From: a virus
DNA: 62,481 nucleotides
Strand: one strand, 5' to 3'
Virus record (IMG/VR): IMGVR_UViG_3300030103_001665
Coordinates: 1-62,481 of that record
The first letter of the stretch is position 1, and each line of letters opens with the position of its first letter. The notes under the pieces are model-generated. The model did no database searches and had not been told where the DNA came from. It saw only the letters and a program-made list of their open reading frames with translations. The position numbers and the translations under genes were made by a program. Below, piece after piece: positions 19,964-32,631 of this stretch.

Positions 19964-21010
19964 TTAACTCATTTTTGGATCAGAAGAGTAAGCTCCTTTT
20001 CCCATAGATTTTTTCATTCCTTTTGATTCGTCTCTACGATCTTTTAAAGATTGATTCATACTTGACTCTTTACCGTCTTTAGCTAAACTTTCGTCTAATC
20101 TCGCATTATATCCTTGTCTGTTAAATGGACTACTTTTGTGATGATGCTCATCTGCTTTAGTAGAATTTCTTGCTACGTGTTTTTTATAATCTTCATCACT
20201 TCCTGGATGATTTTTTCTTCCTCCTTTTGCTTTTACTGGTGAATTTGATCTTGGAGTTTTGTCATATTTTGGATGTTTAGCTGTGTGGTAAACCATTCCG
20301 TGATCTGTTGCTTCCCTTTTACTCATTTCACCATGTGACTTACCTGAATTTTTGTCTTTCATTTTAGCTGGTGATTTGGTAATAACAAAAGTTTCCCCAT
20401 GTAATACACCTTTTTTATGTCTACTAGTTTTTACTTTTCCTGAACCTGAAGCATCTCTAGTATCATAGTTTTCTATATTTATTCCACGTTTATCTGCTTT
20501 CTTTAATTTTCTTTTTAGAGATTTTAATTTTCTATCAAAACTTTTATCAACATTGTCAGTTCCAAAAGAAGCTTTTGCAGCATCAACTTGTTCTTGTTTT
20601 CTAGTAATACGTTTTTTAAGTCTATCTCCTTTTGCTTTTGCTGGAGAACCTTTAGCAGCTTCTTTCATTGGCTCAGTTTTATCACCATCTTTATCTAAAT
20701 CTAAAAAGTCTGGCTTAGCAGCTTTTGCCGGTGAATCTCCTTTTCTATGCATGTCATCTACGATAGGCATATATTTTAATTCATCAACTCCTTGAATTCC
20801 ATATTTGCTAGCGTTTTCCATAGGTGATTCATGACCTGCTTCCATAGGTGATTCGTGACCTGCTTCCATAGGTGATTCGTGACCTGCATACATTGGTGAA
20901 TTCATATACATAGCTGAATCTCTATGCATACCTTGCTTTTTTTCAGCTTTGTACACATGTAAAGCTGACTTCATCATTTTTACCGGGTTTTGTTTTTGTG
21001 AATAAGGCAT
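19964..21010 (-). CDS. Late lysine-rich protein with SPx repeats (348 aa)
   Basis: Highly basic and disordered in appearance. Three tandem HESPMEAG-type units are found near residues 41-64 (encoded by the 24-bp repeats at 20818-20889). Further SP motifs are spread along the chain: GDSPAK, KGSPAK, KSPAKMK, SNSPVKAKGG and KSSPFN. A DLDKDGDKTEP segment near 105 resembles a single EF-hand loop (DxDxDG). Function unknown. A packaged, DNA-binding or processed internal protein is plausible by composition. Confidence 0.6.
   Translation of the reverse strand: MPYSQKQNPVKMMKSALHVYKAEKKQGMHRDSAMYMNSPMYAGHESPMEAGHESPMEAGHESPMENASKYGIQGVDELKYMPIVDDMHRKGDSPAKAAKPDFLDLDKDGDKTEPMKEAAKGSPAKAKGDRLKKRITRKQEQVDAAKASFGTDNVDKSFDRKLKSLKRKLKKADKRGINIENYDTRDASGSGKVKTSRHKKGVLHGETFVITKSPAKMKDKNSGKSHGEMSKREATDHGMVYHTAKHPKYDKTPRSNSPVKAKGGRKNHPGSDEDYKKHVARNSTKADEHHHKSSPFNRQGYNARLDESLAKDGKESSMNQSLKDRRDESKGMKKSMGKGAYSSDPKMS
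20818..20889. repeat. Three 24-bp tandem repeats encoding HESPMEAG
   Basis: Units begin at 20818, 20842 and 20866. The first two differ by one base, and the third ends CAT instead of CTT. They are in frame and encode tandem HESPMEAG octapeptides, so copy number can change without a frameshift. Confidence 0.92.
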
Positions 21011-29334: not shown

Positions 29335-29474
29335 AGTATTTTGTTATTTGTCTATAGATATATACTTACACGTTAAAATAATAATTTACAATATATTTTA
29401 TGTATTATTTAAGTAAATTTAAAAATAACTGTGTAATATAGGTTATCTATTATATAATACCTTACTCCTATCTA

Positions 29475-29497
29475 GATATTATACGTAGTATAATATC
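29475..29497. promoter_or_regulatory. Palindrome containing TATAAT on both strands
   Basis: GATATTATAC, GTA, GTATAATATC: two perfect 10-base arms around a 3-base centre. Each arm includes a sigma-70-like TATAAT, one reading rightward (29489-29494) and one leftward. It lies 3-4 bases before the G-rich start of the candidate RNA at 29500 and could be a divergent promoter with a built-in operator. No good -35 hexamer is present on either side. Confidence 0.55.
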
Positions 29498-29499
29498 AT

Positions 29500-29609
29500 T
29501 AAGGGGGAGATATATTCGGTACCTCACATATCTAATGTACTGGTACCCTTGACTTTTTAGAAAGCTGCTTACATATAGAGAAGTAGGGCGTTCCCCCTCC
29601 ACTTTTTTT
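29500..29609 (+). ncRNA. Candidate small structured RNA ending in a T9 run
   Basis: A 7-bp closing helix pairs AGGGGGA (from 29502) with TCCCCCT, just before a run of nine T at 29602-29610. Inside are a hairpin bounded by two GGTACC sequences (29518-29523 and 29541-29546, with inner ACAT/ATGT) and a second 6-bp hairpin CTGCTT/AAGTAG. The layout (TATAAT upstream, multi-stem body, U-tract end) is that of a small RNA or a leader terminator. No known family is recognised. Confidence 0.45.
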
Positions 29610-29610
29610 T

Positions 29611-29623
29611 TGTCATTTTGTCA
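29611..29623. promoter_or_regulatory. TGTCA direct repeat, operator-like
   Basis: TGTCA-TTT-TGTCA: two half sites of the recurring TGACA/TGTCA element in the same orientation, just after the T-run of the candidate RNA. Variant of the palindromic sites at 29662, 29868 and 32088. Confidence 0.45.
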
Positions 29624-29661
29624 TAAAACTCATTTTATTTCACATACGGGCACTATTTTAA

Positions 29662-29674
29662 TGACATTTTGTCA
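29662..29674. promoter_or_regulatory. Palindromic site TGACA-N3-TGTCA
   Basis: Perfect inverted repeat TGACA-TTT-TGTCA, 54 bases before the first early-promoter element. The same 13-bp layout recurs at 29868 and 32088, which argues for a dimeric DNA-binding protein. Confidence 0.6.
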
Positions 29675-29727
29675 CTATATATACAACTTTTTTATATATT
29701 ACTAAAATACTTTTTAAGTTTTTTATA

Positions 29728-29760
29728 TCGAAAGTTAATACTAATATACTAAGATAATAT
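29728..29760 (+). promoter_or_regulatory. Early-promoter element copy 1
   Basis: TCGAAA-GT-TAATAC-N11-GATAAT. First of six copies with identical internal spacing, located 26 bases before the tiny gene at 29786. If TAATAC acts as the -10, transcription would start within the N11 segment. Confidence 0.7.
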
Positions 29761-29785
29761 AAATGTAACAAATAAAAACTATACA

Positions 29786-29863
29786 ATGCAAACAACTAAT
29801 ATATCACATAACTATTATATAATTAACAATGATAATACTATTACTTATATTAGAGACTTATAG
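29786..29863 (+). CDS. Possible tiny first early gene (25 aa)
   Basis: MQTTNISHNYYIINNDNTIT followed by YIRDL, ending TAG. It begins about 26 bases after early-promoter element copy 1, the same arrangement as the next gene after copy 2, so a translated micropeptide is plausible. Its length and low complexity leave real doubt. Confidence 0.35.
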   Translation: MQTTNISHNYYIINNDNTITYIRDL

Positions 29864-29867
29864 TCTA

Positions 29868-29880
29868 TGACATATTGTCA
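29868..29880. promoter_or_regulatory. Palindromic site TGACA-N3-TGTCA
   Basis: Perfect inverted repeat TGACA-TAT-TGTCA, followed by a looser TGACA-TTA-AGACA at 29889-29901, upstream of early-promoter element copy 2. Confidence 0.6.
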
Positions 29881-29911
29881 CACTACTATGACATTAAGAC
29901 ATATAGTGCAA

Positions 29912-29924
29912 TGACATCTTGACA
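29912..29924. promoter_or_regulatory. TGACA direct repeat, operator-like
   Basis: TGACA-TCT-TGACA, same 3-base spacer as the palindromic sites but with both halves in one direction, 33 bases before early-promoter element copy 2. Confidence 0.45.
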
Positions 29925-29956
29925 TATTAAACACATAAACAAACAAACACTTATAA

Positions 29957-29991
29957 TCGAAAGATAATACTAATAATACTAGATAATATAA
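29957..29991 (+). promoter_or_regulatory. Early-promoter element copy 2
   Basis: TCGAAA-GA-TAATAC-N11-GATAATATAA, ending 22 bases before the 80-aa gene. Same spacing as the other five copies. Confidence 0.75.
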
Positions 29992-30013
29992 TAAACAATT
30001 AATACTTAATACT

Positions 30014-31313: not shown

Positions 31314-31502
31314 ATGTATTGTAAATGTGGAACTCTTGTGCACCCAGTGCGATTAGAATTAGGTTATAAAAATTGTGTTAGTTGTAGTAATACGGAAACT
31401 TACTCATACGTGCCTATTATCACCCATAAAACTGGTAATACTATACAAATAGTATCGCAAGCAGTTTCCGCATCAGTACATAAAGCGTGGAGGCGTAAAT
31501 AA
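31314..31502 (+). CDS. Small zinc-ribbon protein (62 aa)
   Basis: CKCGTLVHPVRLELGYKNCV followed by SC gives two Cys pairs (CxC and CxxC, about 17 residues apart), a compact zinc ribbon. The second half, HKTGNTIQIVSQ, matches a protein I recall from marine phages. Probably binds zinc and perhaps nucleic acid or host RNA polymerase. First gene after promoter element copy 4. Confidence 0.7.
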   Translation: MYCKCGTLVHPVRLELGYKNCVSCSNTETYSYVPIITHKTGNTIQIVSQAVSASVHKAWRRK

Positions 31503-31503
31503 T

Positions 31504-31617
31504 ATGAGATATAATTTTAAATCATCACAAGATGAAGCGTTACATTTCTTACATCTTAGAATAAAAAAATTAGTAGAGGAAAATAAAAAATTAAAAGAAA
31601 AATTAAATGGACAGTAA
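31504..31617 (+). CDS. Tiny coiled-coil protein (37 aa)
   Basis: MRYNFKSSQDEALHFLHLRI then KKLVEENKKLKEKL: a short leucine-zipper-like helix. Starts 1 base after the zinc-ribbon gene and overlaps the next gene by 11 bases. Function unknown. Confidence 0.55.
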   Translation: MRYNFKSSQDEALHFLHLRIKKLVEENKKLKEKLNGQ

Positions 31618-31795
31618 AAAAGCATATGAGATTATGAAAGAAGAGTATATAAATAAAGAAGCATTAGAACTTTGTAATCAAATAGAAAGACAACTAGAAA
31701 GAATAGTATCTTATGATGACGGGTTTTTAAATGATAAAACTTTTAATGAAATTAAAACACACGCCATAAAATTATTAAAAGAATGGCACTTGTAA
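31607..31795 (+). CDS. Small helical early protein (62 aa)
   Basis: Charged, all-helical protein (MDSKKAYEIMKEEYINKEAL). No family recognised. It is the last gene before the structured non-coding block. Confidence 0.55.
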   Translation: MDSKKAYEIMKEEYINKEALELCNQIERQLERIVSYDDGFLNDKTFNEIKTHAIKLLKEWHL

Positions 31796-32080
31796 TCTAG
31801 TAGACGAGTAGGTTAATTAGCGTTGTCCTATAAAGCATTTGCATATACGAGACAACACATAACTGAATTGCTAAATAGATTACTGATAACTAGGTATGGG
31901 AATAATAGTATTGGTGAGGGATCGTTATGAACTCAATACAATTATAACTACTGACGAGTATTGAGGTTCGATTCCTCAACTAGTTACTAAATACCGACTA
32001 CCTAACAGGTAAATCGACAACTTGGCTTCCTTGAGGTATCAGTTGTACAAAGCCAGTCGTAGTGAAAGTGGTCGGTAAAA
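31796..32080 (+). ncRNA. Structured non-coding block, candidate RNA(s)
   Basis: No gene is seen in 343 bases (31796-32138). Several strong helices are possible: GTTGTC/GACAAC (31823-31828 with 31851-31856), CTCAATAC/GTATTGAG (31932-31939 with 31958-31965), a perfect TTGAGG-TTCGATT-CCTCAA hairpin (31961-31979) identical in form to a tRNA T-arm, and a 10-bp TACCGACTAC/GTGGTCGGTA stem (31992-32001 with 32068-32077). Inside that last stem, ACAACT/AGTTGT and TGGCTT/AAGCCA can form an H-type pseudoknot. AACTAG (31888) can pair with CTAGTT (31980) as an acceptor stem. It is not a normal tRNA. Possibly one or two new RNA types, or a folded replication site. Confidence 0.55.
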
Positions 32081-32087
32081 TATTATG

Positions 32088-32100
32088 TGACAAAATGTCA
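32088..32100. promoter_or_regulatory. Palindromic site TGACA-N3-TGTCA
   Basis: Perfect inverted repeat TGACA-AAA-TGTCA directly abutting promoter element copy 5, the same layout as the sites in the divergent region. Confidence 0.65.
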
Positions 32101-32101
32101 C

Positions 32102-32136
32102 GCGAAACATAATACGAATAAAGAAAGATAATAATA
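32102..32136 (+). promoter_or_regulatory. Early-promoter element copy 5
   Basis: GCGAAA-CA-TAATAC-N11-GATAATAATA, next to the palindrome at 32088 and 2 bases before the 77-aa gene. Confidence 0.75.
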
Positions 32137-32138
32137 AT

Positions 32139-32372
32139 ATGAAACAAAAAACAATTTACGACTCATTATTACCTAACATTAAATCAAATTTTAAAGTTAG
32201 TGTTAGAAAATACGATACAGCTAAAAGACTAAAGTATGTTCTCATGTCTAAGTCTCTTTGGTATCAACTAACTATTGATGAACTAAGAGAATTAATAACT
32301 TATGCTGATATACAAGTATCTAACCTAGATAAATATAGTTTTATGTACGGTGATAATATAATAAAAAATTAA
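32139..32372 (+). CDS. Small early protein (77 aa)
   Basis: Basic N-terminal half (KSNFKVSVRKYDTAKRLKYV) and a helical, mildly acidic C-terminal half (YQLTIDELRELITYADIQVS). Possibly a small DNA- or protein-binding regulator. No family recognised. Confidence 0.6.
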   Translation: MKQKTIYDSLLPNIKSNFKVSVRKYDTAKRLKYVLMSKSLWYQLTIDELRELITYADIQVSNLDKYSFMYGDNIIKN

Positions 32373-32373
32373 T

Positions 32374-32631
32374 ATGAAACAAACTGATAACACTTTACCG
32401 AACTGGTTTGAAGGTACGGTATATGACGAAGGAGATAATATAACAAATCCTTTTACTGGTGAATCTTATTATTTAAATGCAGGAGAAACATCTATGTACG
32501 ATTTAATTATGGGAATTAATTATGTTGGTGATCATAGAGGGTGGGACGATGAAATGATTGAGCTGCATCAAAAAGCTTTATCTTGGTTTAGAAAAGTAAA
32601 CCCGCAAGCTTATATGGTATTATTAGATTAA
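32374..32631 (+). CDS. Small acidic protein (85 aa)
   Basis: Contains NITNPFTGESYYLNAGETSM and YDLIMGINYVGDHRGWDDEM, a conserved-looking compact fold with many Gly/Tyr/Trp. I recognise similar small proteins from marine phages but no function. One base follows the preceding stop. Confidence 0.6.
   Translation: MKQTDNTLPNWFEGTVYDEGDNITNPFTGESYYLNAGETSMYDLIMGINYVGDHRGWDDEMIELHQKALSWFRKVNPQAYMVLLD

Follow-up and report, generated by a model that had tools for sequence, protein, structure and literature searches.

Reduction of tmRNA to its tRNA-like domain is described for mycobacteriophage DS6A (tRNA-like domain only), for jakobid mitochondrial tmRNA and for the ~65-bp forms of Mallomonadaceae plastids. 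The tmRNA of DS6A is little more than this domain, and a similar molecule strongly inhibits tmRNA, whether alanine-chargeable or not, perhaps via titration of SmpB (PMC4131195, PMC11915505). The base pair G3.U70, which is the determinant for alanyl-tRNA synthetase, is completely conserved in tmRNA (PMC3985003), while a T-arm/acceptor scaffold with the discriminator A73 is well established to be recognised by RNase P, 3' processing enzymes, EF-Tu and, in the case of tmRNA, SmpB (PMC3985003). The locus reported here shares with the reduced tmRNAs a tRNA-like upper half without the tag part, and sister copies in related phages match RF00023 and keep G3.U70 and A73. Unlike the reduced tmRNAs, however, the tRNA-like element without anticodon (TLS) of the phage under study contains C3-G70 (31890-31983) and has no RF00023 match up to E 10, many types coexist in its relatives, the helices are exchangeable, and two companion elements, A1 and B, are present.

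Other described systems can be set beside it. Complete or two-piece tmRNAs are encoded by phages such as Melnitz and mycobacteriophage Bxz1, and these are comparable in that an RNA gene of tmRNA descent likewise lies in the early region of marine phages. They are described as complete, whereas in the present case there is no mRNA-like domain and only a short distance separates the two acceptor halves. Like the present elements, GOLLD and ROOL are ornate structured phage RNAs near tRNAs, and a GOLLD has been reported beside tRNA-Met in a phage location (PMC12286853). GOLLD, however, is often over 800 nt, whereas the elements here are short, separable and shuffled, and identity with GOLLD or ROOL was rejected as no Rfam match was found and the block spans 343 nt. 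The minihelix-Ala substrate of AlaRS and the acceptor/T-arm substrates of RNase P have nearly the same design as the 46-nt elements of some relatives, but they are laboratory constructs, whereas the relatives' elements are natural and known here from sequence. The tRNA-like structures of plant RNA viruses have tRNA mimicry by a virus in common with this locus; they form the 3' ends of RNA genomes, whereas the present element would be internal to a DNA phage transcript.

The window is a virus record of 62.5 kb (IMG/VR record IMGVR_UViG_3300030103_001665, positions 1 to 62,481), which encodes portal, terminase, GroEL, ligase, sigma-factor and Erf proteins, and its terminase shares 62% identity with that of an uncultured podovirus, 45% with those of Flavobacterium elemo phages and 31-39% with those of Cellulophaga/Tenacibaculum phages. 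As originally predicted, positions 31796-32138 (343 nt) form a gene-free block with no ORF filling it, and the small ORFs on either side of it match no PHROG (four were compared) and give no Pfam hit above the cut-off. The + strand of the block folds better than its shuffles (z -3.7; A1 -2.5, TLS -3.35, B -3.05), and the upstream gene folds no better than shuffled sequence. ARAGORN identified 0 tRNA genes and no tmRNA in the window, and the proposed Rfam search gave no match in 31500-32400 even at E 10 (including RF00005 and RF00023), by which a real tRNA or tmRNA was rejected. The covariation comparison, also proposed beforehand, revealed compensatory changes in A1, in P2 and the outer stem of B and, within the TLS, in its T-stem and its short hairpin, in sets of 20-67 relatives depending on the element; as relatedness inflates pair counts, weight is placed on double changes, slid controls and the many unrelated stems instead of percentages. 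This covariation, together with the empty Rfam result, supports the notion of a new RNA family. The block is structured RNA on the + strand, consisting of at least three independent elements instead of one unit (Table 1); it is gene-free, covarying, modular and of a single orientation, with tmRNA-derived sister copies.

Table 1. Positions of the RNA elements and adjoining signals in the window
Feature	Position	Strand	Remarks
Element A1	31792-31883	+	stem around invariant internal-loop motif
A1 outer stem GTAATCT/AGATTAC	31792-31798/31877-31883	+	
A1 core GACGAGTAGGTTAATTAG facing ACATAACTGAATTGC	31803-31820/31857-31871	+	
A1 variable inner stem GTTGTC/GACAAC	31822-31827/31851-31856	+	
Element TLS, CTAG type	31888-31986	+	acceptor, linker, variable stem, GACG hairpin, T-arm
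TLS acceptor AACTAG(G) with (A)CTAGTT	31888-31894/31979-31985	+	
TLS linker GTATGG	31894-31899	+	
TLS variable stem ATAAT/ATTAT	31902-31906/31941-31945	+	
TLS variable stem GTATTG/CAATAC	31908-31913/31934-31939	+	
Exchangeable tip module GTGAGGGATCGTTATGAACTCA	31914-31935	+	within TLS variable stem
TLS 4-bp hairpin	31949-31960	+	invariant GACG loop
TLS T-arm TGAGG-TTCGATT-CCTCA	31962-31978	+	
TLS discriminator A (A73)	31986	+	
Element B	31992-32077	+	three-helix hairpin, nested P1/P2/P3, 21-nt loop
B P1 TACCGACTAC/GTGGTCGGTA	31992-32001/32068-32077	+	ten base pairs
B P2 CGAC/GTCG	32015-32018/32056-32059	+	
B P3 TGGCTT/AAGCCA	32023-32028/32050-32055	+	
B loop octamer CCTTGAGG	32029-32036	+	self-complementary, start of 21-nt loop
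Palindrome TGACAAAATGTCA, operator-like	32088-32100		repeats of TGACANNNTGTCA
Promoter/leader-like repeat CGAAACATAATACGAATAAAG..GATAATAATAAT	32103-32138	+	of next gene (ATG 32139)

IMG/VR contains 107 stretches with the core pattern of A1 (GACGAGTAGSTTAAYWRG ... ACATAASTGAATWGC), and the window has one copy against 0.02 expected. Among 67 distinct copies, its S-S' pair (31812-31863) is C-G in 54 and G-C in 13 with no mismatch, while the inner stem has 42 distinct sequences and is 91% paired, compared with 33% when slid by one base. The outer stem, the 5' strand of which overlaps the stop codon of an upstream 62-aa ORF, shows compensatory differences between the window and relative L075 (GTAATCTA/TAGATTAC and GTAAGATAG/CTATCTTAC, respectively). 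The inner-stem position is filled by several recurring hairpins, even by a mini tRNA-like element (L029, L098), and the AGTA/GAA faces of the core resemble the loop-E (sarcin-ricin) motif. The 11 pattern matches of A1 in bacterial genomes were rejected, as the second half is present in none.

Both the T-arm-like hairpin and the acceptor-like pairing (AACTAG/CTAGTT, 31888-31893/31980-31985) noticed earlier are present in the window TLS. A T-arm alone is not beyond chance in this genome (2 seen and 1.4 expected) and was dropped as evidence, whereas the combination of T-arm, acceptor and GG linker has one occurrence in the window against 0.007 expected per shuffle. The element contains the acceptor stem, the 5-bp T-stem with a TTCRANY loop and the A73 of a tRNA, the seventh acceptor pair being a G-A mismatch, and is followed by CTAA (31987-31990), the same trailer as that of the real tRNAs of these phages. 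Neither ARAGORN nor RF00005 at E 10 revealed an anticodon arm or full cloverleaf, the place of which is taken by a variable helix; decoding is thus excluded, and the predicted tRNA mimicry is supported by a T-arm/acceptor scaffold without anticodon. Across 39 copies in relatives, the T-stem is 99.0% paired (55% when slid) and the GACG hairpin 98.7% (28% when slid), both with double changes, while the acceptor is 99.6% paired and almost invariant. The tmRNA D-loop motif is absent from the window TLS, and this phage has no Ala-type TLS. The two copies of GACGAGTA, which had been taken for a duplicated unit, turned out to be different motifs, one a strand of the A1 internal loop and the other the GACG-loop hairpin.

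The 22 bases of the tip (GTGAGGGATCGTTATGAACTCA) recur identically in 21 IMG/VR stretches and cap unrelated stems in other phages, either inside an Ala-type TLS (L079, L226) or free-standing (L061, L075, L223, L231); two further tips also cap unrelated stems. This tip is nearly antisense to T-arms (GGGATCG..GAAC and GTTC..CGATTCC), most strongly to its own. The minimum-energy fold predicted for the window TLS has -29.0 kcal/mol, compared with -21.1 kcal/mol for the TLS fold (about 8 apart), because the tip pairs with the T-arm. By fold prediction, the T-stem is favoured in 36 of 39 CTAG-type copies and both TLS helices in 82 of 87 Ala-type copies. The modelled pairing in the window may be a switch, an accident or failing copy, or an artefact of prediction.

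The ten-base-pair stem noticed earlier is present as P1 of B. As compared over 24 distinct copies, P1 varies widely in sequence and is paired in most, P2 covaries (C-G to G-C, A-U to C-G) and P3 is almost invariant. An H-type pseudoknot had been suspected inside this stem, but its helix ACAACT/AGTTGT is 79% paired, the same as shuffles, without double changes, includes one pair exclusive to this phage (A-U in 1 of 20) and shares bases with the covarying P2 helix; the pseudoknot was rejected on these counts. The loop octamer is self-complementary in all 24 copies despite occurring in three versions (CCTTGAGG, CCTTAAGG and CAAGCTTG), which suggests that two molecules make contact through their loops, although one event could account for the difference between versions.

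An IMG/VR scan with a nearby ligase provided 80 related loci, in which the parts 31701-31990 and 31990-32085 occur separately and in different company, the last part of the block being a repeat. TLS of some type is present in at least 54 of 58 relatives, which hold 48 module combinations, these counts being lower bounds from regular expressions, and 171 T-arms with trailer lie in the early-gene direction and 0 in the opposite one. In the nearest relative, L003, the sequence around the block is 95-100% identical, but GTATGG and ACTACTGACG enclose another tip with exact borders, and B with the following hairpin (~112 bases) is missing, the gap lying exactly between CTAA and CGAAA; its downstream gene is 94-98% identical despite the absence of B. 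In L023, L095, L097 and L102, B sits inside an Ala-type TLS, and the cluster adjoins tRNA-Met in many relatives. Such hairpin swapping between near-identical genomes is an unusual natural case of RNA evolving by module exchange. The same clusters also contain a recurring large element (GGCATACWGGTCACGTTAGG...CGATCGTGGTGCGTCAAAACAG...; L061:8100-8200, L075:8710-8890 and others) and further internal-loop modules (AGAAATAGGAGAC/GTCACACTAACTT and CGGAAGTGTATTA). The block has no DNA match in cultured phages, and the elements are absent from the stretches read of Elemovirus elemoE, phi13:2, phi38:1 and MW202828. Literature searches on tRNA-like RNAs in phages of this sort yielded no account of them. 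RNAs resembling tRNA, and tmRNAs without a tag, belong to known kinds, while no named counterpart was found for A1, B or the module exchange, A1 and B being motifs absent from Rfam for which covariation support is already available.

The Ala-type TLS in relatives is typified by GGGCGTG...CACGTCC-A, with the variants GGGAGTG/CACTTCC, GGGGGTG/CACCTCC and GGGTGTG/CACATCC. Among 103 tabulated TLS, position 3.70 is G.U in 85 and the discriminator is A73 in 92, while pair 4 varies (C-G, A-U, G-C, U-A). With lengths of 81-83 nt, ten sister copies reach 57-69 bits against RF00023 (cut-off 47) and share GGTTTTGAC (D-loop motif) and CGGA with the normal Flavobacterium tmRNA used for comparison (396 nt, tag GENNYALAA). 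They contain neither tag frame nor pseudoknots, their length leaving no room for a tag, and have the Rfam match, G3.U70, A73 and elbow motifs of a tmRNA tRNA-like domain. Judged by sequence, some relatives hold a tmRNA reduced to its tRNA-like part; DS6A was the only phage case found in the literature, and the sister copies widen it to an entire clade of aquatic phages. The ARAGORN tmRNA call in L034 (tag ERTEVYYIC) was rejected; it is a TLS of the Ala type whose variable helix is long, and the tag is taken as an artefact, since unrelated helices occupy this position in other copies. Forms of 43-46 nt, which consist only of acceptor, short linker and T-arm, are found in many relatives and are absent from the window; they lie at L045:4912, L068:5004, L061:4464 and similar places, ~2.5 kb upstream of the main cluster. 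The 46-nt element at L046:4065-4110 (GGGCGTG-CTACGGTACTAAAGT-GCAGGTTCGACTCCTGC-CACGTCC-A) has G3.U70, A73, a T-arm and a 15-nt linker, and is almost a natural alanine minihelix.

A1, TLS and B would be small structured RNAs transcribed together with the early genes. The TLS keeps what the tRNA machinery reads (a 7-position acceptor arm, a T-arm, a GG linker able to form an elbow and an unpaired A73), its anticodon side being replaced by a helix with an exchangeable tip, and would most likely be released by RNase P of the host together with its 3'-end enzymes. Once processed, the TLS would be a decoy that draws off host factors binding tRNA or tmRNA, SmpB foremost, and damps host trans-translation during infection, whereas A1 and B would be separate companions, probably protein-binding, or in the case of B engaged in RNA-RNA contact through its self-complementary loop. 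Transcription and processing of the cluster are rather probable, titration of a host factor is possible though on balance unlikely, and the roles of A1 and B are speculative. A cluster of tRNA/tmRNA mimics acting as decoy, most likely for SmpB, is tentatively taken as the leading explanation, because the scaffold with A73 is read by tRNA factors and carries no anticodon, and because DS6A provides a precedent. As such a scaffold cannot decode, its retention in nearly all relatives implies that the phages gain from tRNA mimicry itself, and whether phages switch off host ribosome rescue by an RNA becomes a testable question. The covariation of the three elements, their single orientation, the wide presence of TLS in relatives, and the G3.U70, A73 and tmRNA matches of sister copies speak for the decoy. 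Against it count the C3-G70 pair, the missing D-loop motif and tmRNA match and the predicted tip/T-arm fold of the window's own TLS, as well as the absence of an Ala type from this phage; the rapid module exchange, too, suggests selection by something else than attachment to a single unchanging factor of the host. In a wider formulation, also put forward tentatively, the phages may carry an interchangeable RNA kit (A1, tRNA/tmRNA scaffolds, dimer-prone B and tips) recombining at exact helix ends, which would give each phage its own set of tRNA mimics subverting ribosome rescue or RNA-sensing defence.

The decoy is placed ahead of a role of the TLS as mere processing punctuation, i.e. a cleavage or end-protection signal by which RNase P and 3' tRNA enzymes would set early mRNAs, A1 and B apart as separate RNAs. 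The 43-46 nt forms have the design of the well-known minimal substrates of RNase P; the CTAA trailer is common to real tRNAs and TLS, and the TLS sits between coding units and A1/B. Punctuation is nevertheless the less likely of the two, as it accounts neither for the strictness with which the Ala type keeps G3.U70 and A73 nor for the large exchangeable helix or the tmRNA ancestry, and gene junctions without TLS exist. The swapped tip and missing B in L003 between nearly identical flanks, the 48 module combinations and the same tips on unrelated stems would fit an arms race, in which a fast-changing decoy or trigger blocker counters a host defence sensing or cutting structured or tRNA-like RNA; this is quite improbable, as no defence partner is known and the constant T-arm and acceptor point to a conserved host factor.

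A cis-acting untranslated region, either the 3' end of the upstream mRNA or a region that controls the gene at 32139 from its 5' side, is slightly less credible still. The outer stem of A1 begins within the stop codon that ends the 62-aa ORF, the block leads straight into the downstream gene, and an operator-like palindrome is present, but in relatives the same elements occur beside different genes, at a distance from these or nested in one another, and L003 dispenses with B while its downstream gene is nearly unchanged. Assembly into a larger particle made of RNA only, or into a dimer, as in GOLLD/ROOL and with the B loop as kissing contact, is regarded as distinctly doubtful: the octamer is self-complementary throughout its three versions and the cluster lies next to tRNA-Met in many relatives, like a reported GOLLD (PMC12286853), whereas the elements total only ~290 nt, are gained and lost independently and have no GOLLD/ROOL match in Rfam, and a single event may lie behind the octamer versions. 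Chance folding or a DNA replication or packaging site is highly improbable; a T-arm alone is indeed expected ~1.4 times in this genome, but compensatory changes in many relatives, the single orientation and whole-hairpin exchange argue against both. The replication site of the original prediction is likewise disfavoured, as the elements covary as RNA and all lie in the early-gene direction, and a divergent AT-rich region with repeats sits elsewhere (29335-30013).

Two further loci were noticed in the comparison. L206 (JABSQH010000086.1), a contig assigned to Ilumatobacteraceae by binning, contains a TLS of CTAG type together with the left half of A1, and is probably a misbinned phage contig. 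In L204 (phi38:1), a tRNA-like element with a long insert (20665-20830, - strand) adjoins the gene of an RtcB-like tRNA-splicing ligase and is possibly an interrupted tRNA.

Positions 32103-32138 lie outside the RNA elements, and the 3' end of the block, from about 32103 on, is the promoter-like leader of the next gene. CGAAANNTAATACNAA occurs in six exact copies on the + strand of the early region (29729, 29958, 30601, 31266, 32103 and 33187), which precede early genes and are followed by GATAATA, and is probably the early promoter or leader of this phage. TGACANNNTGTCA is found three times exactly in the window, at 29662 and 29868 in the divergent region and once in the palindrome, and six times with up to one mismatch, where 2.06 are expected. 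The divergent AT-rich gap itself, 679 bases in length, contains an inverted repeat (GGGGGAG...CCCCCTCC, ~29503-29600) followed by a T-run, and is a candidate control or origin region.
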